Virus record (IMG/VR): IMGVR_UViG_3300020153_000011
Span: 1 to 21,482 of that record
From: a virus
Reading direction: 5' to 3' (one strand)
DNA length: 21,482 bases
Shown: positions 6,090 through 18,470 of the stretch, one piece after another
Numbering within the stretch: the stretch's first letter is position 1
Layout: each line of letters begins with the position of its first letter
Translations under genes and position numbers: made by a program
Notes under the pieces: model-generated
Seen by the model: the letters and a program-made list of their open reading frames with translations, nothing else
The model's database searches: none
Told to the model about the DNA's origin: nothing

Positions 6090-6590
6090 CTACCCCCACT
6101 TCTGCCAGGCCTCGTCCTTCACGCCCAGGGCCCGGCGGAGCCGCTCGGCGGGGTCCTCCTCCAGGGAGGCCCTGGGCGCCTCGCTCCGGGGCAGGCTGGT
6201 GGGCACCAGCCGGGGCATCCCCTCGAGGGCCTTCCGGGTGGCCTCCAGATCGGCCCGGGCCTGGGCCAGCCAGAACTCCCGCTGGTGGGGCAGGATGCGC
6301 CCCTCCTCCAGGGCGGCCCGCACCAGGGCCTGGGCCTTCTCCTCCCGGGTCTGGGCCCGGAGGGCCTCCAGCTCCGCCCGGGTGCGCTCCAGCTCCGCCA
6401 GGGCGTCCTGGGCCGCCAGGAGCCTGAGGAGCTTGGCCTTGAGCTCCATCGTGTCCTCGCCTCCCAGGCCCAGCTCCAGGACCACCCGGCCCACCCGGGC
6501 TTCCCTCAGCGCCCCTTCCAGGGCCTGGAAGGCCTCCTCCTCCGTGGCCTGGGGCGGGAGCCCCAGGGCCTGCCTCAGCTTCTCCAGCAT
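6090..6590 (-). CDS. Nested capsid scaffold protein by internal start (Mu gpZ-like)
   Basis: Within the protease gene, in the same frame, codon 171 is an ATG (6590) preceded by GGAGG with a 5-base spacer, a strong ribosome binding site. Starting there gives a 166-residue protein (MLEKLRQALGLPPQATEEEA) made almost entirely of coiled-coil helix, the expected form of an internal scaffold. In Mu, scaffold Z is made from an internal start in gene I. The site here makes the same arrangement likely, but use of this start is inferred. Confidence 0.65.
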   Translation of the reverse strand: MLEKLRQALGLPPQATEEEAFQALEGALREARVGRVVLELGLGGEDTMELKAKLLRLLAAQDALAELERTRAELEALRAQTREEKAQALVRAALEEGRILPHQREFWLAQARADLEATRKALEGMPRLVPTSLPRSEAPRASLEEDPAERLRRALGVKDEAWQKWG

Positions 6591-7100
6591 GTCCGCCTCC
6601 GCTTCAATGCGCTTTTGCATCCGGATGCCGGGGTTGTTGGTGAGGGCGAAACTATGGTAGCCCAGCACCCGGTGCCTGCCCATCTCGTCGGGCCGGGGGT
6701 CGTAGTAGAAGACGGGGGAGACGTAGGCGTACTCCCCCCGGCTCACCCGCTCCCTGCCCGTCTCCGACCACTCCACCACGCCGTACACGACGCCGTCCTC
6801 GCCCACCTCCAGACCGGTGATGAACCCGGCGGCCGGGGCCTCCCCCGCCTGCCCCTCCTCCACCCGCACCGTCTGGTGGTGGAAGTCCAGGACCCAGGGC
6901 ACGCCCCTCTCCTCCAGGTCCCGCAATGCCGCCTGGAGGCTCTCCTCGTCGTAGAGGAAGAGGGTGCCGTTGCCCACGAACTCCCCGTAGGGGTGGAGGG
7001 GAATGCGGCTAGGCGCCTCGCCCAAGGCGGCGCGCAGCGTGCCGGAAAAGGTCGGGGTGGAGGTATCGGTATTCTTGGGGAAGCCGGTCAAACTCGGCAT
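6090..7100 (-). CDS. Prohead protease with scaffold domain (Mu gpI-like)
   Basis: This encodes 336 residues, ATG at 7100 with GAGGAGG five bases upstream. Residues 33-80 carry the Mu-type protease pattern, IPLHPYGEFVGNGTLFLYDE followed by VLDFHHQTV (compare DYEHQT in relatives). The block EYAYVSPVFYYDP (123-135) and HSFALTNNPGIR (149-160) are also characteristic (PF10123). From residue 171 the protein becomes a long charged coiled coil, the scaffold part. The protease matures the head by cutting scaffold and itself. An 80-bp gap separates it from the holin-like gene, large for this operon. Confidence 0.88.
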   Translation of the reverse strand: MPSLTGFPKNTDTSTPTFSGTLRAALGEAPSRIPLHPYGEFVGNGTLFLYDEESLQAALRDLEERGVPWVLDFHHQTVRVEEGQAGEAPAAGFITGLEVGEDGVVYGVVEWSETGRERVSRGEYAYVSPVFYYDPRPDEMGRHRVLGYHSFALTNNPGIRMQKRIEAEADMLEKLRQALGLPPQATEEEAFQALEGALREARVGRVVLELGLGGEDTMELKAKLLRLLAAQDALAELERTRAELEALRAQTREEKAQALVRAALEEGRILPHQREFWLAQARADLEATRKALEGMPRLVPTSLPRSEAPRASLEEDPAERLRRALGVKDEAWQKWG

Positions 7101-7180: not shown

Positions 7181-7456
7181 TCAGGCCCCGGCCCCGGCGG
7201 GGGTGCCTTGAGCGCCCTCGCCCTTGCGAAAGGTGCCGTCCCGGTTGAAGACGGACACCACCATGTCAATGACCCAGCCCACCACCTGGTCCGGGAGCCA
7301 GGCGGGCCAGAAGCCCAGGATGGAGACCACCACGTCCTTGATCCGCTTCAGGGCCTCCTCCTTCTTCTGGATCCCGGGCACTCCGTCCATGAGGTCCTCC
7401 ACCACGAGGACGGCCAGGCCCACGGCGAAATAGACCACCCGCAGAAGCTTCAGCAT
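7181..7456 (-). CDS. Holin-like membrane protein
   Basis: This encodes 91 residues from ATG at 7456, with TTAGGGAGGAAGC as ribosome binding site; it is the first gene after the left 85-bp element. There is a hydrophobic N-terminal segment (residues 3-20, LLRVVYFAVGLAVLVVE), a charged GIQKKEEALKRIKD linker, and a second moderately hydrophobic stretch (VVVSILGFWPAWLPDQVVGW). This layout resembles some small phage holins, but no endolysin gene is nearby, so lysis function is tentative. The C-terminus is Gly/Ala-rich. Confidence 0.5.
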   Translation of the reverse strand: MLKLLRVVYFAVGLAVLVVEDLMDGVPGIQKKEEALKRIKDVVVSILGFWPAWLPDQVVGWVIDMVVSVFNRDGTFRKGEGAQGTPAGAGA

Positions 7457-7464
7457 GCTTCCTC

Positions 7465-7549
7465 CCTAAAAAGCCTTACCCCCTGGGCTTACCCAGGGGG
7501 CACTTACCCAACCTTAGCCGTAGGGTACCACGGGGGGTGGGGGGGTGTC
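7465..7549 (-). promoter_or_regulatory. Left copy of the 85-bp inverted duplication, late-operon control element
   Basis: Read on the minus strand, this matches 15788-15872 base for base over a 17-bp block (GACACCCCCCCACCCCC) and a 55-bp core, separated in both copies by a diverged 13-bp spacer. The core contains two TGGGTAAG repeats 15 bp apart, a 9-bp stem (CCCCCTGGG/CCCAGGGGG, loop TAAG, 7500-7479) and a five-T run 6 bases later. It begins at the repressor stop codon and ends in the ribosome binding site of the holin-like gene. It may hold a terminator, late promoter or antitermination site; the sequence does not settle which. Confidence 0.75.
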
Positions 7550-8198
7550 AATCCAGCCGGCTCCGCACCTCAACCACCCGCCCCACGATCTCCGCCACCT
7601 CCTCCTTGGGGATGACCGGAGGGCCGTTGTTCTCGTCGGGGTTGGTGGAGTACAAGGCGTCCCGGCCCATCTTCTTGACCACGTAGGTATGCTCGTTTAG
7701 GCGCGCCACCACGATGGCCCCGGGGTGGCCCTTGTCCTGCGTGTTGACGATGACGATGTCCCCGTGGCAGATGGGGCGCTTGCCGGCGCACATGGAGTTG
7801 CCCCGCACCTTGAAGGCCACCAGGTGGGAGGCGTCTCCCTTGACGCGGACGGGGACGGTGCGCTCCTCGATCTCCTCCAGCTGGGGCGGGCCGCCGCCCA
7901 CGTAGCCAAGGACAGGCACTCCCACTTCTTTCCGAGTCAAAAAAGAGCCTTCGGGATAAAGCCTCTCAATGAGGTTCTCCACAGGGATTTCCAGCGCTAG
8001 GGAAAGTTTGGTAAGGGTGTCCAGGCTGGGCTTGATGTACTTGTCCCCGATTTTCCGCCCAATGACCAGGCTATACACTGTTGTGCGGCCGATGTCGTAA
8101 TGGTCCGCAAACTCTTCCAGCTTGCGGAAGCCCTTTTCACGCATCTTGGCCAGGATTTCCTTGGCGAAAGGCCCTTCGAAGTAGCGTTTTCTCTCCAT
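7548..8198 (-). CDS. Phage repressor, LexA/CI-type with S24 peptidase-like domain
   Basis: This encodes 216 residues from ATG at 8198 preceded by GGGGGGAGC; an in-frame TTG at 8228 has no such site. Residues about 23-80 form a helix-turn-helix domain (ADHYDIGRTTVYSLVIGRKI). The C-terminal half is an S24/LexA fold with catalytic Ser in RGNSMC (Ser135) and Lys in TYVVKKM (Lys175 or 176). The usual Ala-Gly or Cys-Gly self-cleavage site is not evident; the hinge reads LGYVGGGPP. It is divergent from the Cro/Ner-like gene, as expected for the immunity region, and should keep the early operon silent. DNA damage may trigger self-cleavage. Confidence 0.88.
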   Translation of the reverse strand: MERKRYFEGPFAKEILAKMREKGFRKLEEFADHYDIGRTTVYSLVIGRKIGDKYIKPSLDTLTKLSLALEIPVENLIERLYPEGSFLTRKEVGVPVLGYVGGGPPQLEEIEERTVPVRVKGDASHLVAFKVRGNSMCAGKRPICHGDIVIVNTQDKGHPGAIVVARLNEHTYVVKKMGRDALYSTNPDENNGPPVIPKEEVAEIVGRVVEVRSRLD

Positions 8199-8251
8199 GC
8201 TCCCCCCTTTCACGACCCGGGTCCTCAATACTTTCTTCTATTGAAGCACCC

Positions 8252-8281
8252 TTGACTTACTCACAAGTGGGATGGTACACT
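8252..8281 (+). promoter_or_regulatory. Candidate early promoter
   Basis: TTGACT (8252-8257) and TACACT (8276-8281) are spaced by 18 bp and resemble -35 and -10 boxes of the housekeeping sigma factor. Transcription would begin near 8288-8290, at or next to the ATG of the Cro/Ner-like gene, so the mRNA would be leaderless, common in Thermus/Deinococcus. The adjoining palindrome would let a repressor block it. Confidence 0.6.
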
Positions 8282-8298
8282 ACTCTCAGATGAGAGTA
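8281..8298. promoter_or_regulatory. Palindromic operator at the early promoter
   Basis: TACTCTCAGATGAGAGTA has perfect 8-bp arms around two central bases. It overlaps the presumed transcription start and the ATG at 8290. A closely related palindrome (CTCTCACGTGAGAG) recurs at 11426-11439. The repressor and/or Cro/Ner-like protein are the likely ligands. Confidence 0.7.
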
Positions 8299-8523
8299 AA
8301 GGCCCGCCTTAATCTTCACAGGGTTGAACGCCTCCTAGAGGAGCGTGGGTGGTCCAAGTACCGCCTTTCCCGCCTGGCCGGACTGAGTTATGGGCATGTG
8401 ATCATGCTCCTCCAGGGGCGGCGCCCTAATCCGTCTATAGCCACTGTCGCTAAGCTGGCCCAGGCTTTTGGTGTACCCATCGAGGAGCTTTTGGAGGAAG
8501 ACGATGGCGTGGTTGCCCGTTGA
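8290..8523 (+). CDS. Cro/Ner-like helix-turn-helix regulator
   Basis: This encodes 77 residues from ATG at 8290; another ATG at 8272 in the same frame would add six residues but lies upstream of the expected transcription start. The Cro/CI-type helix-turn-helix is clear: WSKYRLSRLAGLSYGHVIML, then GRRPNPSIATVAKLAQAFGV. As the first gene of the early operon, opposite the repressor, it takes the place of Mu Ner, which damps early and repressor transcription. Its 3' end overlaps the transposase gene by 20 bases and carries that gene's ribosome binding site. Confidence 0.8.
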   Translation: MRVKARLNLHRVERLLEERGWSKYRLSRLAGLSYGHVIMLLQGRRPNPSIATVAKLAQAFGVPIEELLEEDDGVVAR

Positions 8524-10465
8524 CGAAGCCGCTGCCCTGTTGGGGGTTTCCAGGGCGTGGGCTTGGAGGGTGATCAAGGAGCGGGGCCTACCGACCCGGC
8601 TTGAGCGGATGGGCCGCGTGTACCGCACTTTGGTTGACGCTGATCTCCTCGCTCTGGCTTTGGGCAAAGAGCCTGTTGGGGGCAAAGAGGAAGAGCCCAC
8701 GGGGCTTCGCCCTTCCAGCGGCACGAGGACGGCCTGGGCCGATGTGGCCCTTGTGGCCGAGGAGTACGGTCAGTTGCCAAGAGGCCTGCGATGGGAGCTC
8801 GTCCTCCGTACCGCCGAGCGGTGGGGCGTGACCCCTGAGTACGCTTACCGGGTCATTCGGCGTTTTCGGGAGGAAGGGGCGGGTGGCATTGCGCCGAAGG
8901 TGCGCCGGGATAAGGGAGTGCATCGGGTTCCTTCCGAGCTTCGCCAGCTCATCCTGGGCCTGAAGTTGGCCCACCCCGGAGCCTCGGCCTCAAAGATTCT
9001 GCGCATTATCCAGTTGAATGACCCCGATCTCCTGCGATACAAGCCGTATCAAAATGGCTCTACCATCAACACGCTTTCCGCCTCCACGGTGCGCAGGTTG
9101 ATCAAGGCGGCGGAGAGCATCCCCGCATACCGATGGGCCCTCCTCTCTGATGAGGGTAGACGGGAGTTCGCCCGCACTTGGGCGGGGCATGTGATGGCCG
9201 AATATCCCATGCAGATGGTCATGGTGGACATGACCAGGTGCGACACCTTTGTCTACAACCCTGACGAGGGGAGCGCCTACCGGCTCAGGATCCACGTGGC
9301 CCTGGATGTGTTCTCCGGGGCCTCGCCCAGCCTGGTGTTCAGCCGCGAGGAGTCCCAGGTGCCCACCGATCAGCTCCTCATCCTGATGACCCAGGACAAG
9401 AGCGGGTTGGCCCCAGGTTGGGACATCTTCGGTGTCCCGGAGCGGATTTACTGGGATAACGGTAAAGTGTACAAGTCCGAAAAATCTGAACACTTCGCCC
9501 GCCAGCTGGGCATTGAGCTGATTTACTCCCGCCCCCGGGTATCCCACACCCGAGGGCGGGTTGAGTGGTTTTTTGGGGCCTTCCACCAGGAGTTTGAGGC
9601 TCTTATCCCCGGCTATGCGGGCCAGGACGCCACCGAGCGGGACTCCACCCAGCTGAAGCGCCTCATCGCCAACACCCGAGCCTGGGTGGCGGCGGGCATG
9701 CCTCCTGAGGAGGACCCCTATCCTAACCGGCTCCTCCTGGAGGAGGAGTACAAGGCCCGCGCTCTAGCCTGGCTCCTCCAGGACTGGCACCGGAAGCCAG
9801 TGGGCCGGGACGGCCTTTCCAGGGCAGACCTTTTCCGGGCCTACGTGCCCCGGCACCGCCTCGTGCGCCTGGACCTCGGGGACCTTTATCTCCTCACCGC
9901 CTACCAGACCGAGCGGGTGGTGCGGGGGAACGGGACCGTGGCCTACAACGGTAGGACCTACTACCTTCGCCCCGAGGATGGCTCCCTCCTCCCCTGGCAG
10001 GGGCAGAAGATCGTGGTCCTGGACGTCCGGGTTCTCCCCGGCCAGCCCCTTCGGGCCGCCCTGCGCCAGCCCGATGGGAGCCTCCGGGTTCTTGGGGAAC
10101 TCATTCCCGAACCTCTGCGGGCGGACAGCCTCGAGGCTAAGGCCAAGAGGCTGGCCGACAAGGCCGCCATTCGGGCTGTGCGGGAGGCGGCCCAGGAGCT
10201 CACCGCCCAGCTGGGGCCTGCCGTGCGGTTTGAAGAGATCCTGGAACGCCTTTCCGGCCTCGCGCCTCTGGCCCGAAGGGAGCGGGTCCGCCCGATGGCC
10301 CAGGAGCTCCCCCGCCCCTCGGAGGAGGAGCTCCAGGCCGCCGCGGCCGAGCTGGAAGACGGTTTGGACGACTTGATCTGGGAACCCATCGCCCTGGGCG
10401 ATAAGTGGCTCCGGGAGCGGGGCCTTCTTCCCCCGGGTGAAGGGAAAAAAGGAGGTGACGCATGA
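8504..10465 (+). CDS. DDE transposase, MuA-like
   Basis: This encodes 653 residues from ATG at 8504 with GGAGG six bases upstream; a TTG at 8468 would add 12 residues without such a site. Residues 5-55 form an excisionase-like helix-turn-helix (VDEAAALLGVSRAWAWRVIK), and a second DNA-binding region follows to about 210. The catalytic core shows Asp242 (VMVDMTRCD), Asp318 (IYWDNGKVY) and Glu354 (GRVEWFFGAF), the DDE triad of the retroviral integrase superfamily. A beta-barrel-like part follows and the C-terminus is helical, where MuA contacts MuB. Length is near MuA (663). It should cut and join the phage ends during integration and replicative transposition. Confidence 0.92.
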   Translation: MAWLPVDEAAALLGVSRAWAWRVIKERGLPTRLERMGRVYRTLVDADLLALALGKEPVGGKEEEPTGLRPSSGTRTAWADVALVAEEYGQLPRGLRWELVLRTAERWGVTPEYAYRVIRRFREEGAGGIAPKVRRDKGVHRVPSELRQLILGLKLAHPGASASKILRIIQLNDPDLLRYKPYQNGSTINTLSASTVRRLIKAAESIPAYRWALLSDEGRREFARTWAGHVMAEYPMQMVMVDMTRCDTFVYNPDEGSAYRLRIHVALDVFSGASPSLVFSREESQVPTDQLLILMTQDKSGLAPGWDIFGVPERIYWDNGKVYKSEKSEHFARQLGIELIYSRPRVSHTRGRVEWFFGAFHQEFEALIPGYAGQDATERDSTQLKRLIANTRAWVAAGMPPEEDPYPNRLLLEEEYKARALAWLLQDWHRKPVGRDGLSRADLFRAYVPRHRLVRLDLGDLYLLTAYQTERVVRGNGTVAYNGRTYYLRPEDGSLLPWQGQKIVVLDVRVLPGQPLRAALRQPDGSLRVLGELIPEPLRADSLEAKAKRLADKAAIRAVREAAQELTAQLGPAVRFEEILERLSGLAPLARRERVRPMAQELPRPSEEELQAAAAELEDGLDDLIWEPIALGDKWLRERGLLPPGEGKKGGDA

Positions 10466-11232
10466 CGGAAGCAGAGATCAGCAGGCTTATTGACGAGGTG
10501 TTTGGTGGCTACGTTCCCGAGGCGGAGCTAAGGGACCCCCGCAACGGGTTCATCCCCACCGCCGGGGCCCGGGCTCTTCTGGGGCACTTGGCCCTTGCAG
10601 TCCAGGAGCGCTTCCCGTTCGCTCTGGTGGTGGGGCCCGCCGGGGTGGGGAAGACCCTGACATGCCGCTACTACGCGATGGAACACGAGGCCCCCTGGGT
10701 GCGGGCCCAGCCTGCCTACAGCCCGGCCGCCCTCCTTGAGGACATGGCCGTGGAGCTCCGCATCACCAGGACCAAGGTCTTCCGGGTCCTCCTCGCTATG
10801 GTCCGGGACGCCCTCCTTCTCCGCCCCCGGGTGGTCTTTATAGACGAGGCCCAGCTCATGGACCGCCCCACGCTGGAAACGGCGAAGTACCTGGCCGACG
10901 AAACGGGCTCCACCTTCGTCCTCATCACCACCGATGAGTACGCCCCTCAGATCCGCCGCTATCGGGACATTGAGTCCCGCATCGGAACCGTGGCCCAGAT
11001 AGGGCCCGTGCCCGCCGCTGAGCTGGTGGGCATCTACGAAGGCTCGGGCTACACCCGCGCCGCCCTGGAGGAGGTCCACCGGCTCACGGGCGGGATTCTC
11101 AGGGACGTGGTTCGCCTCATCAAGCAGATGGACACCCTGGTGGAGCTCAACAGCATCCCAAAAGGGGCCATTACCCCGGCTCACGTGCGGCGTCTGGCCT
11201 CCAGGTTGAATCTTGCGGGGGGTGCAGCGTGA
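10462..11232 (+). CDS. Transposition target-capture ATPase, MuB-like
   Basis: This encodes 256 residues, ATG at 10462 overlapping the transposase stop as ATGA. Walker A is GPAGVGKT (58-65) and Walker B VVFIDEA (124-130), in an AAA+ fold like MuB/IstB/TniB proteins; VLITTDEY follows as a sensor-like segment. MuB forms ATP-dependent filaments on target DNA and stimulates the transposase. Compared with MuB (312 residues) the N-terminal helix-turn-helix part is short or missing. It is translationally coupled to the transposase gene. Confidence 0.9.
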   Translation: MTEAEISRLIDEVFGGYVPEAELRDPRNGFIPTAGARALLGHLALAVQERFPFALVVGPAGVGKTLTCRYYAMEHEAPWVRAQPAYSPAALLEDMAVELRITRTKVFRVLLAMVRDALLLRPRVVFIDEAQLMDRPTLETAKYLADETGSTFVLITTDEYAPQIRRYRDIESRIGTVAQIGPVPAAELVGIYEGSGYTRAALEEVHRLTGGILRDVVRLIKQMDTLVELNSIPKGAITPAHVRRLASRLNLAGGAA

Positions 11233-11579
11233 AGAAGCGCCCTTTCTCCCAAATAGAGGGGGCTATCCCCCCCATGCGTTACGAGGCCACATACATCTAC
11301 TTGACTGAGGACGGCACGTGGCCGAAGAACCCCATCGCCATCATCCCTAAGGACCTGGACTGGCTGCAGGAGGAGACCTATGTGGCCATCCGTGATCTCC
11401 GCCCTTCATCTGTGATGGGAAGTATCTCTCACGTGAGAGTACTGGAAGTGCGTCCTGAGATACATGTGAGTACTGGTCGCTACAGCCAGGTGATCCGGCG
11501 AGTACTGGTCACACCCGTCTTGTCCTTAGAGGAAACGAACAAAGCCATTGGGGAGGTCGATGATGAGCTTCCCTTCTAA
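11229..11579 (+). CDS. Hypothetical early protein with SSB-like acidic tail
   Basis: This encodes 116 residues, GTG at 11229 overlapping the MuB stop as GTGA. I do not recognise the fold; it appears beta-rich (MRYEATYIYLTEDGTWPKNP and VRVLEVRPEIHVSTGRYSQV). The last six residues, DDELPF, closely resemble the C-terminal tip of bacterial SSB (DDDIPF type), the docking peptide for replication-restart and repair proteins. Codon use in 11420-11530 is unlike neighbouring genes, with more A/T at third positions, because the stretch also carries DNA repeats. The DDELPF codons overlap the next gene's ribosome binding site and start, so the tail might be coincidental. Confidence 0.75.
   Translation: MKKRPFSQIEGAIPPMRYEATYIYLTEDGTWPKNPIAIIPKDLDWLQEETYVAIRDLRPSSVMGSISHVRVLEVRPEIHVSTGRYSQVIRRVLVTPVLSLEETNKAIGEVDDELPF
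11426..11508. promoter_or_regulatory. Second operator-like palindrome plus three GAGTACTGG repeats inside a gene
   Basis: CTCTCACGTGAGAG (11426-11439) is a perfect palindrome with the same arms as the operator at 8281-8298. GAGTACTGG occurs at 11437-11445, 11468-11476 and 11500-11508, spaced 31 and 32 bp, close to three helical turns. The array could be an operator, a transposition enhancer like the Mu internal activation sequence, or a control site for the downstream early genes. No clear promoter is seen with it. Confidence 0.55.
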
Positions 11580-11985
11580 CCTGCCGCCCGCTAAGGAAAT
11601 CATCCGCTTACTGGAGCTCCCCGCCCTCATCCGGAAGGTGGGGGAGAGGTTGACCGCCCTCCGGGCTGAGCGCCGTCAGGTGGAGCGGGAGCTGAAGGAG
11701 CGGGAGGCCCGGGTCTACCTGGCCGCCGAGGGGCGCTCCGCCCAGGAGCGGGAGGCCCGGGCCCGCGTCTTCCTTTCCCAGGACCCAGAGTACCAGGCCC
11801 TGGTGAAGCGGATGGACCAGCTTTACGCCGCCATTGACGTGGCCACGGAGGAGAAGAACGCCCTGGAACACGAGCGCAAGGCCCTATACGCCTACGTCAT
11901 CAACCGGCACAGCGACCTCCTGGAAGCCGCCATGAGCCAGGGGGCCTTCGGCTTCAGGGCCCCTCTTTCCACGGGGAAGGCATGA
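11560..11985 (+). CDS. Hypothetical coiled-coil early protein
   Basis: This encodes 141 residues, first of two adjacent ATGs at 11560, with GGGGAGG just upstream inside the preceding gene. The middle is a long charged helix pair, including RRQVERELKEREARVYLAAE and FLSQDPEYQALVKRMDQLYA, likely an antiparallel coiled coil. In Mu this early region encodes Gam, a helical DNA-end-binding protein, but I see no specific Gam signature, so this is only a thought. Confidence 0.75.
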   Translation: MMSFPSNLPPAKEIIRLLELPALIRKVGERLTALRAERRQVERELKEREARVYLAAEGRSAQEREARARVFLSQDPEYQALVKRMDQLYAAIDVATEEKNALEHERKALYAYVINRHSDLLEAAMSQGAFGFRAPLSTGKA

Positions 11986-12170
11986 CCAAGGACGAGCTCA
12001 TTCGGCTCCTCAGGGAGGACCCGGAGGTCCGGGCCGCCCTCGCGGAAGCCCTCCAGGGGGTGCGCCCCCGCCCTCTGGAGGAGGCGGGAAGGGGGATCGC
12101 GGCCATCCTGGCCGAGGCGGAACGGGAATGGCTCAGGAAGCGGGAGGAGAAGCATGAAGAAGGACGCTAA
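11982..12170 (+). CDS. Small hypothetical early protein
   Basis: This encodes 62 residues, ATG at 11982 overlapping the previous stop as ATGA. It opens TKDELIRLLREDPEVRAALA and ends in a charged helix (EREWLRKREEKHEEGR). It is fully helical with no membrane segment and no recognised family. Tight overlap on both sides suggests a real, co-translated gene. Confidence 0.7.
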   Translation: MTKDELIRLLREDPEVRAALAEALQGVRPRPLEEAGRGIAAILAEAEREWLRKREEKHEEGR

Positions 12171-12441
12171 GAAGACCAGGCTGGAGGAGCTGGTGGACGA
12201 GCTGGCGGAGGAGGGGCTTCCCCGGCACCTGCGGGTGGCCTACGCCCTCTATGACCTGGCCCGGGACATGGTGCGGGCGGCCAACGAGGCTCGGGACACC
12301 GAGGCTGTGGACCTGGGGGAGCTGGACCGGCTGGTGCGCCGGGCCCTGGCGGTGCGCCTGGCCGCCGAGGCGGATTCGGACCAGAAGGCGAGGGAGGTGC
12401 TGGCCCACCCGCACCGGCTGAAGGGGGTGGAGTGCCCGTGA
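12154..12441 (+). CDS. Small hypothetical helical protein
   Basis: This encodes 95 residues, ATG at 12154 with GGGAGGAGAAGC before it, overlapping the preceding gene by 17 bases. It contains ELVDELAEEGLPRHLRVAYA and then a helix ending in DMVRAANEARDTEAVDL. It is acidic and helical; no family recognised. Confidence 0.7.
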   Translation: MKKDAKKTRLEELVDELAEEGLPRHLRVAYALYDLARDMVRAANEARDTEAVDLGELDRLVRRALAVRLAAEADSDQKAREVLAHPHRLKGVECP

Positions 12442-12710
12442 GGCGGCCCTTCAAGAGCGCCCTGGACACCATCCGCGCCTACGGCCTCACCCCGGGGGAG
12501 CTCCGGGAGCGGGCCCGGCTGGCGGAGCGGCACGGCCAGGCCTGTCTGGCCCAGCTCTACCGGGACGAGGCGGAGGCCCAGGAGGTGGTCATGCGCCTCC
12601 GCCCCTGCCCTCTCTGCGGGGGCACGGGGCGCATCGCCGACGACATTTTCTGCTGGCGGTGCGACCCCCAGCTTTCCCGGGCCTGGGTGGAGGTGCGCCG
12701 TGGACCATAG
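12438..12710 (+). CDS. Small zinc-ribbon protein
   Basis: This encodes 90 residues from GTG at 12438, which overlaps the preceding stop as GTGA; an in-frame GTG at 12432 is possible. After a helical N-terminus (SALDTIRAYGLTPGELRERA) it has a zinc-binding motif CPLCGGTG plus FCWRC, i.e. CxxC-x11-CxxC. Such ribbons occur in DNA- or RNA-binding proteins and in DnaJ-type cysteine-rich modules. Its target is unknown; a role in phage replication or in altering host transcription would be guesses. Confidence 0.75.
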   Translation: MRRPFKSALDTIRAYGLTPGELRERARLAERHGQACLAQLYRDEAEAQEVVMRLRPCPLCGGTGRIADDIFCWRCDPQLSRAWVEVRRGP

Positions 12711-12942
12711 GTTCCTGATCCGGCGGCTTCGGGCGGACTCCGGCACCCCCTACCGCCTGCGCATCCGGGGGCTCACGGGGGAGGGGACGGTGTTCCTGAA
12801 GTGGGACGGGGGCGGGGTCATGTTCTACCTCCGGCCTCTCCGGCAGTGGGAGGGGCCCTACGCCGAGCCCCGGGCCCTCGAGGTCATGGCGGGCTGGCGG
12901 ATCCTGGAGGCCCGGCCCGTGTCCGTGGAGGAGGTGGCGTGA
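12700..12942 (+). CDS. Small hypothetical beta-rich protein
   Basis: This encodes 80 residues, GTG at 12700 with GGAGGTGC upstream, overlapping the zinc-ribbon gene by 11 bases. The middle reads as a beta sheet (TPYRLRIRGLTGEGTVFLKW and GGVMFYLRPLRQWEGPY). No family recognised. Confidence 0.65.
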   Translation: MDHRFLIRRLRADSGTPYRLRIRGLTGEGTVFLKWDGGGVMFYLRPLRQWEGPYAEPRALEVMAGWRILEARPVSVEEVA

Positions 12943-13328
12943 GCCTGCGGGAGCGCCTGCGGGAGCTGGGGTGGGAGGGGAAGGCCCTTCTCACTCCCCA
13001 CCAGGTGGCGGCCCTCCTGGAGGTGGGGCGCCCCGCCGTGGAGGACCTCATGCGGCGGGGCCACCTCCGGGTGGTGCGGATGCGGCAGAAGGTGTACGTG
13101 ACCCTGGCCAGCCTGGAGGAGCTGGTGGAGGGGGCGGTGCCCCGGAGGCGGGCGGCCTGGATGGCCCTGAGGCTCCTGGAGCGCCTGGGGGGGCGGGTGG
13201 AGCTGGCCACCCACCCAGAGGGGTACATCGCCCGGGCCCTGGGGGCGGAGGGGCGGGGGCTGACCCTGGAGGAGGCCGTTCTGGCCCTGGCGGACCAGCT
13301 GGCCCAGGAGGTGGAGGGTGAAGGCTGA
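12939..13328 (+). CDS. Excisionase-like helix-turn-helix protein
   Basis: This encodes 129 residues, GTG at 12939 overlapping the preceding stop as GTGA, with GGAGGAGGTGGC upstream. Residues 18-65 form a MerR/excisionase-type winged helix (LTPHQVAALLEVGRPAVEDL, then RGHLRVVRMRQKVYVTLASL). The C-terminal helical half may mediate dimerisation. It probably binds DNA; it could regulate early or late transcription or assist transposition. No exact relative recognised. Confidence 0.75.
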   Translation: MSLRERLRELGWEGKALLTPHQVAALLEVGRPAVEDLMRRGHLRVVRMRQKVYVTLASLEELVEGAVPRRRAAWMALRLLERLGGRVELATHPEGYIARALGAEGRGLTLEEAVLALADQLAQEVEGEG

Positions 13329-13701
13329 GCGGATCACCGAGACCGAGTTGCGCCTGGCGGCGGAGCTCCTCCTGCAGCGGGGGGAGTGGGGCGTGGCCCG
13401 CGGCGACTTCGTGCGCCAGTTCGGGGGGGACCGCCGGGGGCGGGCCATCATGGCCGAGTTGCGCAAGAGGGGCGTCCTGCCGGTGGTGGTGGCGGAGAGC
13501 CCCGCGGGGGACGAGGTGTACAAGGTGCCGACGACCGAGGAGGAGTTCCAGGCCTTCCGCCGGAGCCTCCTCTCCCGCATCCAGGAGCTGCACGCCGCCA
13601 TCCGGGGCCTGGACGAGGCCTGGGCCCACTGGCGGGCGCACCGGGCCCCCCGGTGGCGTCAGCCCGGCCTCTTTGAGGTGGGCGATGGAGGGAGAGGATG
13701 A
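13318..13701 (+). CDS. Hypothetical protein with winged-helix-like N-terminus
   Basis: This encodes 127 residues, GTG at 13318 with GGAGGTGGAGG upstream, overlapping the preceding gene by 11 bases. Residues about 1-70 could form a small winged helix (ELRLAAELLLQRGEWGVARG, RGRAIMAELRKRGVLPVVVA). The rest is a helix with TEEEFQAFRRSLLSRIQELH and the end is PGLFEVGDGGRG. No family is assigned. Confidence 0.65.
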   Translation: MKAERITETELRLAAELLLQRGEWGVARGDFVRQFGGDRRGRAIMAELRKRGVLPVVVAESPAGDEVYKVPTTEEEFQAFRRSLLSRIQELHAAIRGLDEAWAHWRAHRAPRWRQPGLFEVGDGGRG

Positions 13702-13900
13702 GGTCCTGGCCTTCTTGGCGGGCTTCCCTTCGCGCTACCCGCGCCGGCTGGGGGAGCTGGAGGTGCACGCTTTCCGGGACGAGGAAGGGCGCTGGACCCT
13801 GGTCCTCTTCCGGGGCGAGGCCCTGGTGGCCCTGGACTGGGGCTGGGACCCGGAGGAGGTAGAGGAGGCGCTGTGCCGACGCTTCTCAAGCTGGTCCTGA
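13685..13900 (+). CDS. Small hypothetical acidic protein
   Basis: This encodes 71 residues from ATG at 13685 with GAGGTG four bases before it; an in-frame TTG at 13673 is less likely. It has a helix (DEVLAFLAGFPSRYPRRLGE) followed by a beta hairpin (RWTLVLFRGEALVALDWGW). No family recognised. Confidence 0.6.
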   Translation: MEGEDEVLAFLAGFPSRYPRRLGELEVHAFRDEEGRWTLVLFRGEALVALDWGWDPEEVEEALCRRFSSWS

Positions 13901-14064
13901 TCTACGCCCTGGTCGCCCAGGTGGGCCTCCTGGCCCTCCTGGGCTACCTGGCCTTGACCCGCCGGGAGCCCCTCCCCCCAGGGGCCTCGGTGGGCCTCCT
14001 CCTCTTCGCCAGCCTGGTGGGTTTCCTGGGGGTGGTCCTGGCCCTGGTGTGGAGGTGGGTATGA
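13873..14064 (+). CDS. Small membrane protein with two transmembrane helices
   Basis: This encodes 63 residues, GTG at 13873, preceded by GAGGAGGCGC. Two hydrophobic helices are clear: residues 4-27 (LLKLVLIYALVAQVGLLALL) and about 38-61 (SVGLLLFASLVGFLGVVLAL), joined by the short polar loop TRREPLPPG. The size and topology could suit a holin or a superinfection-exclusion protein, but position in the early operon argues against a late lysis role. Confidence 0.7.
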   Translation: MPTLLKLVLIYALVAQVGLLALLGYLALTRREPLPPGASVGLLLFASLVGFLGVVLALVWRWV

Positions 14065-14279
14065 CGGACTGGGAGCGCTTTGCGAAAGAGGTGGAGCGGC
14101 GTCTGGTGCGGGACGGGGAGGTCGCCATCTGCGTGGGCCTCACCTCGGTGGGGGGTCCCTACTGCCCGCCCCTGGAAGGGCTTATGAAGGCCTACATCCA
14201 GGTGCCCAGGGGCCTGGTCTGGTACGGGCGCGCCCAAGGCCGGGTCTACTGGATGTGGCAGCCCCTGGAGGAGGCGTGA
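14061..14279 (+). CDS. Small hypothetical protein
   Basis: This encodes 72 residues from ATG at 14061, overlapping the preceding stop as ATGA and following GGAGGTGG. It has an N-terminal helix (TDWERFAKEVERRLVRDGEV) and then strands with GGPYCPPLEG and RVYWMWQPLEEA. No family recognised. Confidence 0.65.
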   Translation: MTDWERFAKEVERRLVRDGEVAICVGLTSVGGPYCPPLEGLMKAYIQVPRGLVWYGRAQGRVYWMWQPLEEA

Positions 14280-14530
14280 GCCCCGAGGAGGCCCTGAACA
14301 CCCTGCTCCTGCACGCCTACGAGGCTGCTTCCGGCGGGGCCTACCTAGAGGTGGAGCGGGCGGGCGAGACCCTGCGGGAGGCTCTGCGCAGGCTGGCGGG
14401 GGCCGAGCGGGAGCTGGAGGTCTTGCGGGCCCGGGAGGCCTCCCTCTCCCGGCGGGTGCGTGAGGCCGAGGAAGCGCGCTACCGGGCCCTCAGGCTGTTG
14501 CTGGAGCTGGAAAGGGAGTTGAAAAGATGA
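14276..14530 (+). CDS. Small coiled-coil protein
   Basis: This encodes 84 residues from GTG at 14276 overlapping the previous stop as GTGA, with GGAGGAGGC upstream. From about residue 30 it is a single heptad-rich helix (ETLREALRRLAGAERELEVL, then RALRLLLELERELKR). Likely a dimeric coiled coil; its partner could be the next gene's membrane protein, to which it is translationally coupled (ATGA). Confidence 0.65.
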   Translation: MSPEEALNTLLLHAYEAASGGAYLEVERAGETLREALRRLAGAERELEVLRAREASLSRRVREAEEARYRALRLLLELERELKR

Positions 14531-15375
14531 GAAACGCCATGATCGGGCTGTTGATTCTGGCTTATCTGAGCACCCTGGCCATGAGCGCGGGCCACCTGGC
14601 CCAGTGGTACGCCAAGAGCCTGGGGGGGCTTCCCCCCGGGCTGGCCTGGGGCCTGGCGGGGAGCCTGGAGTTCACCGCCTTCCTCCTCTCCCTTCTCTCC
14701 AACTCCCTCCTCCGGGGCTCTTCCTGGGCGGGGACGGGGGCGGTCCTGGCCCTGGGCCTGGTCTGGGTGGGGAACGCCCTCTCCATGCACCGGGGGGCCC
14801 CGGACCTCCCCCTGTGGGAGGTCCTGCTGATGAGCCTCTTCGTGCCCGTGGGCACCTACGTGGTGGGGAAGGTGGTGGGGGAGCTCCTGGCCTGGCCACA
14901 TCCTGTGGCCGTGATGGCCACGAGGGAAAGGAGGACGGCCACTCAGAGTGGACACCTGGCCTCTTCGCTGGCCGGGGAAGCGGCCACTAACCGGGAGAAT
15001 GTGGCCGCCCCTGGCCAGGGGGCGGGCAGGGAGGTGGCCACCCAGCGGGCCCACTTGGCACCTGGGGTGCTCAAGGATAATGGGGAAGATGGTGCCCTGT
15101 GGCCAGGGGTTGGCCATGAAGGTGGGCGTGAGGGCACGGCCACCCTCAAGGTGAAGCGGAGCGTGGACATGGAGTGGACGCTGGAAGGTCGGGCGGTGGA
15201 GGTGGTCAGGGCCCTGTCCGCCCACGGCGGTCCCGTGGCCGTGGCCAGGTTGGCCGCGGAGCTGGGGTGGCCGCGGACCACCCTGAGGCGGTACTTGGAC
15301 CGCCTGGAGGGGGAGGGGGTGGTCGTGCGCACCGAGGAGGGCTGGGCCCTGGCCAGGGAGGTGGACCATGTTTGA
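14527..15375 (+). CDS. Membrane-tethered winged-helix protein
   Basis: This encodes 282 residues, ATG at 14527 overlapping the previous stop. The N-terminal about 120 residues hold four hydrophobic segments (roughly 4-22, 36-58, 66-86, 94-120). A polar, probably disordered linker follows (about 125-212), then a winged-helix domain at 218-278 (EVVRALSAHGGPVAVARLAA, WPRTTLRRYLDRLEGEGVVV) of the MarR/IclR type. A DNA-binding domain on a membrane anchor is rare in phages; DUF2637/SpdB2-like proteins of actinobacterial plasmids have a comparable layout. It may hold DNA at the membrane or sense membrane state. The linker DNA is packed with TGGCCA sites. Confidence 0.75.
   Translation: MRNAMIGLLILAYLSTLAMSAGHLAQWYAKSLGGLPPGLAWGLAGSLEFTAFLLSLLSNSLLRGSSWAGTGAVLALGLVWVGNALSMHRGAPDLPLWEVLLMSLFVPVGTYVVGKVVGELLAWPHPVAVMATRERRTATQSGHLASSLAGEAATNRENVAAPGQGAGREVATQRAHLAPGVLKDNGEDGALWPGVGHEGGREGTATLKVKRSVDMEWTLEGRAVEVVRALSAHGGPVAVARLAAELGWPRTTLRRYLDRLEGEGVVVRTEEGWALAREVDHV
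14893..15143. repeat. Cluster of TGGCCA/CGGCCAC motifs in the linker of the membrane-winged-helix gene
   Basis: The palindrome TGGCCA occurs at 14893, 14915, 15012, 15035, 15100 and 15111, with two more at 15242 and 15350. CGGCCAC versions begin at 14936, 14981 and 15137. The copies fall in all three reading frames (encoding Trp-Pro, Ala-Thr and Gly-Gln/His), so protein repeats do not explain them. A binding-site array for a DNA-binding protein is possible. Confidence 0.45.
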
Positions 15376-15817
15376 ACCCAGGGAGCTATGGCGGGCCCAG
15401 TGGGTGGCCGCGGCCCTCTGGCGGGTGGTGCACGGGGAAGCCCGGTGGGTCACCCTGGAGCCTCAGGACCACCGGCCCTCCCAGGGGCTCCCGACGGAGT
15501 ACGCCCTGACCACCCGTCAGGCGGACGCCCCGGCCTACCTGCCCGTGTACGTCCCCCCTCTGCCCGACCTGGGGATAGAGCGGGAGTACCTGCGCCTGTG
15601 GCGGTCGGACTACGTGGCCTTTCTCAAGAGCCTCCACCCCGGGGAGCGCCAGGTGGTAGAGGCGTGGCTCGGCAAGGGCAAACTCACCCCCCTCGCGATT
15701 TACAACCCCTCCGCCAGGCGGATCCAGGTCATGGCCTCCCAGGACGCGCTGGACCTCTTCGTGCGCCTGGCCCGCCGGGCCACCCTAGACACCCCCCCAC
15801 CCCCTGAGGTAGAGTAG
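15368..15817 (+). CDS. Hypothetical protein at the end of the early operon
   Basis: This encodes 149 residues, ATG at 15368 overlapping the preceding stop, with CAGGGAGGTGGACC upstream. It is a soluble protein with Trp-rich N-terminus (REWLWRAQ-like, actual ELWRAQWVAAALWRVVHG), a proline-rich middle (LPVYVPPLPDLG) and helical C-terminal half (EYLRLWRSDYVAFLKSLHPG). In Mu the activator Mor/C sits at this point of the genome, but I see no helix-turn-helix here. Its last codons and stop lie in the right copy of the 85-bp element. Confidence 0.7.
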   Translation: MFEPRELWRAQWVAAALWRVVHGEARWVTLEPQDHRPSQGLPTEYALTTRQADAPAYLPVYVPPLPDLGIEREYLRLWRSDYVAFLKSLHPGERQVVEAWLGKGKLTPLAIYNPSARRIQVMASQDALDLFVRLARRATLDTPPPPEVE

Positions 15818-15872
15818 GGCTAAGGTTGGGTAAGTGCCCCCTGGGTAAGCCCAGGGGGTAAGGCTTTTTAGG
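15788..15872 (+). promoter_or_regulatory. Right copy of the 85-bp inverted duplication, late-operon control element
   Basis: This is the inverted partner of 7465-7549. The 55-bp core (15818-15872) is identical. The hairpin stem is 15837-15845 with 15850-15858, the TGGGTAAG repeats are at 15827 and 15842, and the T-run is 15865-15869. The left 17 bp encode the tail of the last early protein, and the right edge merges into the AGGAGGAGG ribosome binding site of the packaging operon. It therefore sits at the early/late boundary exactly as the left copy sits between repressor and capsid operon. Confidence 0.75.
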
Positions 15873-15882
15873 AGGAGGTGGT

Positions 15883-16143
15883 GTGGACGAGCGCGTGGAG
15901 GGGCTCATGCGCGTGGTGGAGGGTCTGCTGGAGGAGTTGGCCCGCCAGGGCGTACCCGAGGACCGCCTCCGCCCCTACCGGGAAGAACTCCTGGCCCTGC
16001 GCATCTACACCCGGATGCGGAAGGACAAGGAGCCCGCTCCCCCGGCCTTCTGGGCCAACCCGCGCTTCTGGCTGGTCCTGGCTCTGCTCCTGGCCATCGT
16101 CGCAAGCCTTCTGGGCCTTCCCGTCCACAAGCTCTTTCCCTGA
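15883..16143 (+). CDS. Small protein with C-terminal transmembrane helix
   Basis: This encodes 86 residues, GTG at 15883 after GGAGGAGGTG. The N-terminal half is helical (DERVEGLMRVVEGLLEELAR) and the C-terminus has one hydrophobic helix at about 62-80 (FWLVLALLLAIVASLLGLPV). It is first in the right late operon, the equivalent position to the holin-like gene on the left, but the sequences are not alike. A lysis function is possible but unsupported. Confidence 0.7.
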   Translation: MDERVEGLMRVVEGLLEELARQGVPEDRLRPYREELLALRIYTRMRKDKEPAPPAFWANPRFWLVLALLLAIVASLLGLPVHKLFP

Positions 16144-16667: not shown

Positions 16668-17203
16668 AGCTCCACTACCGCAGGCACCGACTGTGCAAGG
16701 TGTGCGCCCTCCCGGACGAGGTGCGGGAGCGGGTGGACGCCATGATCCTGGGCGAGGAGACGGAGGAGGACGGCCGCCCCCACTCCCTGGAAGGGATCGC
16801 CGCCTGGTTGAAGGCCCAGGGGTACGAGGCCTCCACCAGCTCCGTCCGCCGCCACGCCCGGCACCTGGCCCCGGCCCTGGACCAGGTGCTGCAGATGGAG
16901 CGCCTGGTGGAGGCGGTGGAGGAGGCCACCGGGAAGCGCCTCTCCTACGCCGCCGCCCTCGCCAACATCGTGGTGCACAAGACCCTCCGCTACCTGGACG
17001 GGCTGGAGCTGGGGGAGGCGGAGGTGGACCCGGAGAAGATCGTCCGCCTGGGGCTGGAAGCGGCCCGGGTGGCCCTCTCCCTGGCGCGGATAGACCGTTC
17101 CCTCAAGCAGGAGGCGGCGGAGAAGGTGGAGAAGGCCCTCCGGGTGCGGGAGATAGAGCCCGAGGTGATCGAGGCCATCAAGCGGGATCTCTATGGCCTT
17201 TGA
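16664..17203 (+). CDS. Terminase small subunit (Mu gp27, DUF3486-like)
   Basis: This encodes 179 residues from GTG at 16664, overlapping the preceding stop as GTGA; a GTG at 16658 is also possible. The N-terminus resembles DUF3486: CKVCALPDEVRERVDAMILG, then a helix-turn-helix LEGIAAWLKAQGYEASTSSV, then long helices to the end. TerS recognises phage DNA for headful packaging and stimulates TerL. It overlaps the TerL gene by 11 bases. Confidence 0.8.
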   Translation: MKLHYRRHRLCKVCALPDEVRERVDAMILGEETEEDGRPHSLEGIAAWLKAQGYEASTSSVRRHARHLAPALDQVLQMERLVEAVEEATGKRLSYAAALANIVVHKTLRYLDGLELGEAEVDPEKIVRLGLEAARVALSLARIDRSLKQEAAEKVEKALRVREIEPEVIEAIKRDLYGL

Positions 17204-18470
17204 CCTTCTGCCCTACCAGCGGGCCTGGCTGAAGGACCAAAGCCGCTTCAAGATCGGCCTCTGGTCCCGCCAGACGGGGAAGAGCTTCGCCCTGGCCGCG
17301 GAGGCGGCCCTGGACGCCGTGGAGAACACGGGCTCCACATGGGTGCTCCTCTCCGCCGGGGAGAGGCAGAGCCGGGAGCTGGCGGAGAAGGTCCGGCATC
17401 ACCTGGAGGCCATGAAGCAGGTGATGGAGTACATGGAAAGCCGCTTCCTGGAGGGGGGCGAGAGCGTGACCCAGCTGGAGATCCGCCTCCCCAACCTCTC
17501 CCGCCTCATCTTCCTCCCCGCTAACCCCCGCACCGCCCGCGGCTACACGGGCAACGTGGTCCTGGACGAGTTCGCCTTCCATCAGGACTCCGAGGCCATC
17601 TGGGCGGCCATGTACCCCATCATCACCCGCAGGCCGGACCTGAAGATCCGGGTCATGTCCACGCCCAACGGCCCCCGGGGGAAGTTCTGGGAGCTCTGGG
17701 AGAAGGGCGGGCCTGTGTGGTCCAGGCACAAGGTCACCATCTACGACGCCGTGGCCCAGGGCCTTCCCGTGGACCCCGAGGAGCTCCGGGCGGGCCTGGC
17801 CGACGACTTCATCTGGCAACAGGAGTACCTGTGTGAGTTCCTCTCCGCCGAGGAGGCCTTCCTGCCCTGGAGCCTCATCCTGGAGGCCGAAGCCCGGGAG
17901 GACCCTCGGGGCCCCTGGAACCCCGAGGCGGCCTACCTGGGGATGGACATCGGCAGGCACCGGGACCTCACGGTTCTCGTGGTCTTGGAGCGGGTGGGGG
18001 ACGTGTACTGGGTGCGCCTTTTGGAGACCCTGCACCGGGCTCCTTTCGCCCAGCAGGAGGCCCGCCTCCACGCCCTCCTGCCCCAGGTACGCCGGGCCTG
18101 TATAGACGCCACGGGTCTGGGGGAGATGCTGGCGGAGAACGCCCGCCGGGCCTTTGGCTACAAGGTGGAGCCCGTGAAGTTCACCCCCGAGGTGAAGGCG
18201 GACCTGGCCCAGCGCCTCCGCCTCTTCTTTGAGGACCGGAGGGTGCGCATCCCCGAGGACCGGGCCCTGCGGGAGGACCTGCACAGCGTGCGGCGGGTGG
18301 TGACCCCCTCGGGGAACGTCCGCTACGACGCCGAGCGGTCGGAGCGGGGACACGCGGACCGCTTCTGGGCCCTGGCCCTGGCCCTGCACGCCGCCGAGAC
18401 CCGCAGGGGCCCGGTGGAGTACAAGAGCGTCCTCCGGCGGGCCTTCGCGGGCTGGAAAGGAGCCTACTGA
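17193..18470 (+). CDS. Terminase large subunit (Mu gp28-like)
   Basis: This encodes 425 residues from ATG at 17193. The ATPase has a Walker A-like SRQTGKS (25-31) and Walker B VVLDEFA (122-128), followed by the coupling motif VMSTPNG (154-160). The RNase H-like nuclease shows Asp252 (GMDIGRHRD), Asp305 (CIDATGLGE) and Asp388 (HADRFWALAL), as expected for the metal-binding triad. It pumps DNA into proheads and cuts it when full. In Mu-like packaging it starts at one end and takes in flanking host DNA. Confidence 0.92.
   Translation: MAFDLLPYQRAWLKDQSRFKIGLWSRQTGKSFALAAEAALDAVENTGSTWVLLSAGERQSRELAEKVRHHLEAMKQVMEYMESRFLEGGESVTQLEIRLPNLSRLIFLPANPRTARGYTGNVVLDEFAFHQDSEAIWAAMYPIITRRPDLKIRVMSTPNGPRGKFWELWEKGGPVWSRHKVTIYDAVAQGLPVDPEELRAGLADDFIWQQEYLCEFLSAEEAFLPWSLILEAEAREDPRGPWNPEAAYLGMDIGRHRDLTVLVVLERVGDVYWVRLLETLHRAPFAQQEARLHALLPQVRRACIDATGLGEMLAENARRAFGYKVEPVKFTPEVKADLAQRLRLFFEDRRVRIPEDRALREDLHSVRRVVTPSGNVRYDAERSERGHADRFWALALALHAAETRRGPVEYKSVLRRAFAGWKGAY

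Follow-up and report, generated by a model that had tools for sequence, protein, structure and literature searches.

Paired late-operon start cassettes and a candidate late regulator in a Mu-like transposable phage of Thermaceae

Results

Gene content and the inverted repeat pair

The window, i.e. the whole stretch of DNA analysed here, is the complete 21,482-bp IMG/VR record IMGVR_UViG_3300020153_000011. It has the gene content of a Mu-like transposable phage, with an rve-domain transposase, an AAA ATPase and a syntenic set of terminase, portal, F, protease, capsid and sheath genes (Table 1), in which what we take to be the Mu I-like protease/scaffold gene is named from the established Mu-like gene order. 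At the left end, positions 1-765 have a GC content of approximately 46-60%, compared to approximately 65-75% in the next stretch, and a 42-bp unit occurs twice in tandem at 115-198. Comparison of this segment with plasmid and E. coli collections gave no match, and it is possibly a host junction or foreign DNA.

The two arms of the repeat are 93% complementary across 85 nt, which makes this inverted repeat longer than any other in the window by a wide margin, and include a 55-bp core without mismatch (7465-7519, minus, against 15818-15872, plus). A 41-nt part of this core matches only these two places in the window, with 0 matches expected in shuffled sequences, and the 85-bp pair reported in the first-pass annotation is thus real. 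The shared stretch extends from the GACA of the -35 hexamer, which reads TTGACA in copy A and TAGACA in copy B, to the ribosome-binding site. Copy A lies behind the repressor gene, the TGA stop of which is located inside TTGACA, and the 3' end of gene 15368-15817 extends into copy B, in agreement with the annotated position of each copy between a regulatory or early gene and the ribosome-binding site of a late arm.

An assembly duplicate is excluded, since relatives from other metagenomes as well as isolate genomes carry both copies. Gene conversion, raised previously as a possible origin of the identical core, is plausible for this window specifically, where a recent A-B conversion is likely because hairpin and tail are the same in both copies here but position-specific in most relatives. 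No exact or near match of the 85-mer was found in phage, plasmid and viral collections, suggesting that the anatomy persists while the sequence changes rapidly, and Rfam gave no match.

Table 1 Positions of the repeat copies, their elements and the surrounding genes in the window.
Feature	Position	Strand	Basis
Whole repeat copy A, head of left late arm	7465-7549	-	Inverted-repeat comparison
-35 TTGACA and 18-nt C-rich spacer, copy A; CCA ends 10 nt ahead of -10	7528-7551	-	TTGACA 6/6 in all Thermus A copies
Tandem hexamers TACCCT-N5-TAAGGT, copy A (-10; -10-like box at -1 to +5)	7511-7527	-	T/A/T of both invariant, 20 distinct copies
GC hairpin copy A: 11-bp stem, TAAG loop, start at about +14; T-run 4 nt past stem	7477-7502	-	Folding and alignment
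Whole repeat copy B, head of right late arm	15788-15872	+	Inverted-repeat comparison
-35 TAGACA and 18-nt C-rich spacer, copy B	15786-15809	+	Aligned copies
Tandem hexamers TAGAGT-N5-TAAGGT, copy B	15810-15826	+	Invariant T/A/T, 20 distinct copies
GC hairpin copy B, same as copy A; T-run starts 4 nt past stem	15835-15860	+	Folding and alignment
Presumed Mu I-like protease/scaffold gene; then capsid, tail sheath, tube in left arm	6090-7100	-	Synteny
First gene of left late arm, small protein; very weak holin match	7181-7456	-	Family search
Repressor, S24 peptidase domain; stop codon overlaps copy A -35	7548-8228	-	Domain search
MuA-like transposase	8468-10465	+	Domain search, rve domain
MuB-like AAA ATPase	10462-11232	+	Domain search
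Candidate late regulator and final early gene, 149 aa, without a family; 3' end extends into copy B	15368-15817	+	Covariation with copy A, rho 0.85
First gene of right late arm, small protein	15883-16143	+	ORF and relatives
Large terminase; then portal, Mu F-like gene in right arm	17193-18470	+	Relatives

Anatomy of the cassette

The two repeats are copies of one late-operon start cassette, consisting of a promoter, a second promoter-like box and a hairpin. In the aligned copies a -35 element is followed after 17-18 nt by TANNNT and, a further 5 nt on, by a second TANNNT; behind these come a short leader, a GC hairpin with its T-run, and finally the ribosome-binding site. The -35 in the alignment is TTGACA in copy A, without exception and at 17-18 nt from TANNNT in Thermus, and TAGACA, TGGACA or TTGCCA in copy B; it is absent from most copies outside Thermus.

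The second TANNNT is located exactly 5 nt downstream of the -10, at -1 to +5, so that a -10-like box is present in the initially transcribed region. Across 22 columns (-12 to +10) of 20 distinct Thermus and Meiothermus copies, the only invariant positions are T-12, A-11, T-7, T-1, A+1 and T+5, the first hexamer being imposed by the search pattern and the second not required by it. Overall, a TANNNT is followed by another at N5 spacing in 29 of 1,010 cases in 13 loci, and most of these 29 are probably cassettes themselves.

A hairpin is present in every copy, with a very stable GC stem of 8-12 bp that starts at +6 to +16 and whose sequence varies yet keeps its pairing. In Meiothermus the T-run is close to the stem, the A copies continuing from the stem directly into TTTTGTTT or TTTTGGTTT, and in the Thermus copies it is placed 4-7 nt past the stem. 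As the hairpin-TTTT pairs of the host mostly have the T-run 0-3 nt from the stem, termination at the Thermus hairpin is uncertain and may be poor. The shuffle z-scores of the single-sequence folds are modest (-0.9 and -1.7), and the case for the hairpin therefore rests on conservation, not on energy.

Occurrence in relatives

Relatives were gathered via the MuA-like transposase, yielding 12 contigs of viruses and 6 from Thermus or Meiothermus genomes. In every relative that spans both sides the pair occupies the same positions, with copy A behind the repressor, heading the protease-capsid-sheath arm, and copy B behind the homologue of gene 15368-15817, heading the arm with the small protein, terminase, portal and F genes. 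Third copies are present in the right arms of four contigs (L003, L005, L007 and L009), and most of these have the spacer type found in the rest of the phage; the third copy of the T. brockianus prophage has a different spacer.

A profile of the last early protein detected homologues in 15 of 50 Thermaceae genomes. Six divergent homologues (L154-L159, 33-50% identity) served as a prediction test, the regions behind them being read after the tandem-box rule was fixed, and five of the six have the N5 tandem box and a hairpin behind the gene. The tandem-box gap in L155 is 6 nt rather than 5, and L154 also contains an A copy. Scanning of four joined prophage regions with the pattern revealed 2-4 cassettes in each, e.g. 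four in G033 and three in the T. brockianus prophage, and in G047 and G039, where the late genes are unsplit, direct copies are found behind the regulator and before the protease. Divergent Thermaceae prophages thus contain up to four cassettes each, at the heads of late operons, in direct or inverted orientation. When applied to other Mu-like contigs (0.90 Mb), the same scan matched once; shuffled sequence (1.0 Mb) gave no match, and two doubtful matches were located elsewhere in the Thermus loci.

The collected loci also differ in arrangement. Terminase, portal, F, protease and capsid genes are all on one strand in other Mu-like phages (L031, L033, L034) and in G047/G039, and the protease-tail part is across the early module in divergent orientation in the Thermus clade as well as in L018, L020 and L154. 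Meiothermus phages have an extra small gene between regulator and copy B (approximately 18054-18250 in L018). The MuA-like frame is broken in L013 and L014 (7 stops in a one-frame read-through of L013), its product being 93% identical to that of the window, and a run of more than 40 G in the isolate genome contig L015 (14731-14780) is probably an assembly artefact. In Thermus sp. 2.9 (L017) and T. aquaticus Y51MC23, i.e. in two species, the published prophages are flanked by identical host genes (PMC4605624), which is surprising given that random transposition would be expected of such a phage.

The spacer and the candidate regulator

Spacer types differ between phages, e.g. C-rich as opposed to AGGACCAAG. 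Within them, a CCA is fixed 10 nt before the -10 in Thermus, apart from the L013 type and a single point mutation. In L018, L020 and G033 the distance is 11 nt, and the undivided lineage has AGCAAAA at -26 to -20 in place of the CCA. In G033, four otherwise unlike spacers keep CCCA at one distance, which gene conversion would not explain. Copies within one genome agree in the spacer (identity 0.81 versus 0.45 between groups) and in the leader (0.89 versus 0.58), with no special agreement in the stem (0.91 versus 0.86). With its fixed CCA and its covariation with the candidate regulator, the region between -35 and -10 is a candidate recognition element.

The sequence of copy A tracks gene 15368-15817, located 8 kb away, with a rho of 0.85 (34 genes, 12 phages; permutation p 0.0005), the 14 C-terminal residues that overlap copy B being left out; the permutation ignores shared ancestry, for which the remaining genes of these genomes act as the control. 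None of these is comparable, the next being MuA (0.45) and the repressor adjoining copy A reaching 0.41. Part of the covariation may originate from A-B gene conversion, as gene 15368-15817 is linked to copy B. Judged from these sequence comparisons, 15368-15817 is the candidate late regulator. The product of 14527-15375, with an apparent membrane-type N-terminal half and a C-terminal winged helix, was also considered as regulator and rejected, as it does not track the cassette sequence (rho 0.19); relatives have clearly different winged-helix versions behind a conserved N-terminal half.

The model of the 15368-15817 protein is confident (core pLDDT above 90). Domain and family searches gave no family match, and a sequence search of the PDB and separate fold searches returned nothing significant, although absence of a Q or AlpA fold from the match list proves nothing; the weak top rows of the fold search, which include sigma region 4-flap chimeras (Z 2.5), are not usable. 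The Q families PF06530 and PF03589 gave no match under conditions that detected control sequences, the search with Q family PF06323 was uninformative as it detected no control either, and no member of the Mor/C family PF08765 was found in 7 genomes or records, its control being detected.

Discussion

Based on the promoter anatomy, its conservation and its covariation with gene 15368-15817, we propose that the late regulon is probably under Q/AlpA-like antitermination, with the 15368-15817 protein as regulator. Lying in the initially transcribed region, the second TANNNT would serve as a pause box that resembles a -10, and the leader hairpin would act as a terminator. In the lysogen and in early infection, polymerase starting from the cassettes, or reading in from the repressor or early transcripts, would stop at the hairpin after approximately 40-50 nt. 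The regulator would then recognise the spacer between -35 and -10, load onto the polymerase that sigma retains at the second TANNNT and take it past the hairpin, so that all late arms are switched on together. In cassettes that lack a -35, as in the Meiothermus types, the same protein may both recruit and antiterminate polymerase. The initial suggestion of a duplicated late promoter, terminator or antitermination site for both arms is hereby supported and extended to up to four cassettes per phage and a candidate regulator, with antitermination as the probable mode of action.

In lambdoid phages, the gene of the Q regulator is located directly upstream of the late promoter, as gene 15368-15817 is to copy B, and in lambda the terminator is much farther from the start than the cassette hairpin at +6 to +16. 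Thermus phage P23-45 encodes gp39, which acts on polymerase and on termination; it acts on polymerase generally and is not known to do so via promoter cassettes. For the late promoters of Mu, we know of no leader terminator or tandem -10. The cassettes appear to fit the Q/AlpA anatomy closely, Q-type control being defined by a recognition element between -35 and -10, a sigma-holding -10-like box and a terminator behind (PMC6606751, PMC9371919). They appear to share this arrangement, with late genes downstream, with pR' and tR' of lambda Q and 21Q (PMC6606751), yet no sequence relation to Q was found, there are up to four sites instead of one per phage, and the phages are transposable phages of Thermaceae. 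AlpA of Pseudomonas aeruginosa, one protein serving two separate operons, has its element at -25 to -20 (PMC7969949, PMC9371919), a position that the cassette CCA overlaps, and its target alpB has the -10-like box at -1 to +5 (PMC9371919), with terminators predicted from +26 or +54 at AlpA targets (PMC7969949, PMC9371919). However, AlpA is a bacterial cell-death regulator, and no sequence or fold match was found for the 15368-15817 protein.

Antitermination is favoured by the invariant second TANNNT at the same place as the alpB box, by the five correct predictions behind divergent regulators, and by the position of the cassette at the heads of late operons together with its near-absence from the background. 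It is further favoured by the tracking of gene 15368-15817 by copy A, with agreement within a genome in spacer and leader, not stem, by the fixed CCA that overlaps the AlpA element position, and by stems that vary but stay paired and that in Meiothermus A copies run straight into TTTTGTTT or TTTTGGTTT. The displaced T-run in Thermus, the -35 that is mostly absent outside Thermus and the lack of a Q-family or significant fold match for the regulator count against it.

The first two of these points also suit activation, the main rival, which we regard as unlikely. Here, the 15368-15817 product or another protein would bind the spacer and recruit polymerase, like Mu C or T4 MotA, and the hairpin would do no more than keep read-through from the repressor and early transcripts out of the late genes. 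The targets of Mu C are lys, I, P and mom (PMC4461284), i.e. one regulator for several late operons, and two cassette positions correspond to Plys and PI. Mu-type activation nevertheless fits less well, as A/B identity begins at the -35, leaving no shared upstream activator site, whereas Mor binds at -43.5 (PMC4390567), and as no homologue of the Mor/C family was found in the 7 genomes or records searched. Moreover, the TTGACA of the Thermus A copies is by consensus strong enough unaided, and the invariant second TANNNT would be left unexplained. A considerably less probable reading is that the promoters are strong and constitutive, that the hairpin stabilises the late mRNA at its 5' end, and that regulation lies elsewhere; a very stable stem near the start and the poor T-run in Thermus are compatible with this, in contrast to the terminator-like tails in Meiothermus, the second TANNNT and the covariation with a distant gene. 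The earlier alternative of an 8.3-kb invertible segment swapping which late arm the early operon reads into, suggested by inverted repeats with an identical core, is rejected as exceedingly improbable, since the repressor-transposase module has the same relative orientation in all 18 distinct phages with both arms (the window and 17 other Thermus or Meiothermus transposable phages), no inverted form being found among them, the early proteins scanned include no recombinase besides MuA, and the cassettes are direct repeats in undivided relatives.

Returning to antitermination, it is an evenly balanced proposition that in the transposable phages of Thermaceae up to four scattered late operons form one regulon under an antiterminator class that is novel in sequence, has no relation to Q or AlpA and replaces Mu C. 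In the literature covered, with subscription journals mostly outside it, we found nothing on antitermination in transposable phages or on late control in Thermus prophages, and no description of such a late-control system in Thermaceae.

Whereas Mu late genes are controlled by activation and those of lambda by antitermination, a Mu-like family here seems to apply the logic of lambda to several operons, which lie in both orientations, with a regulator that sequence searches cannot name. The covariation between cassette and gene provides a concrete protein-site pair, and the RNA polymerase of the hosts is one of the best characterised in structure. If true, the proposed mechanism would suggest that sigma-dependent promoter-proximal pausing serves regulation in Thermaceae.
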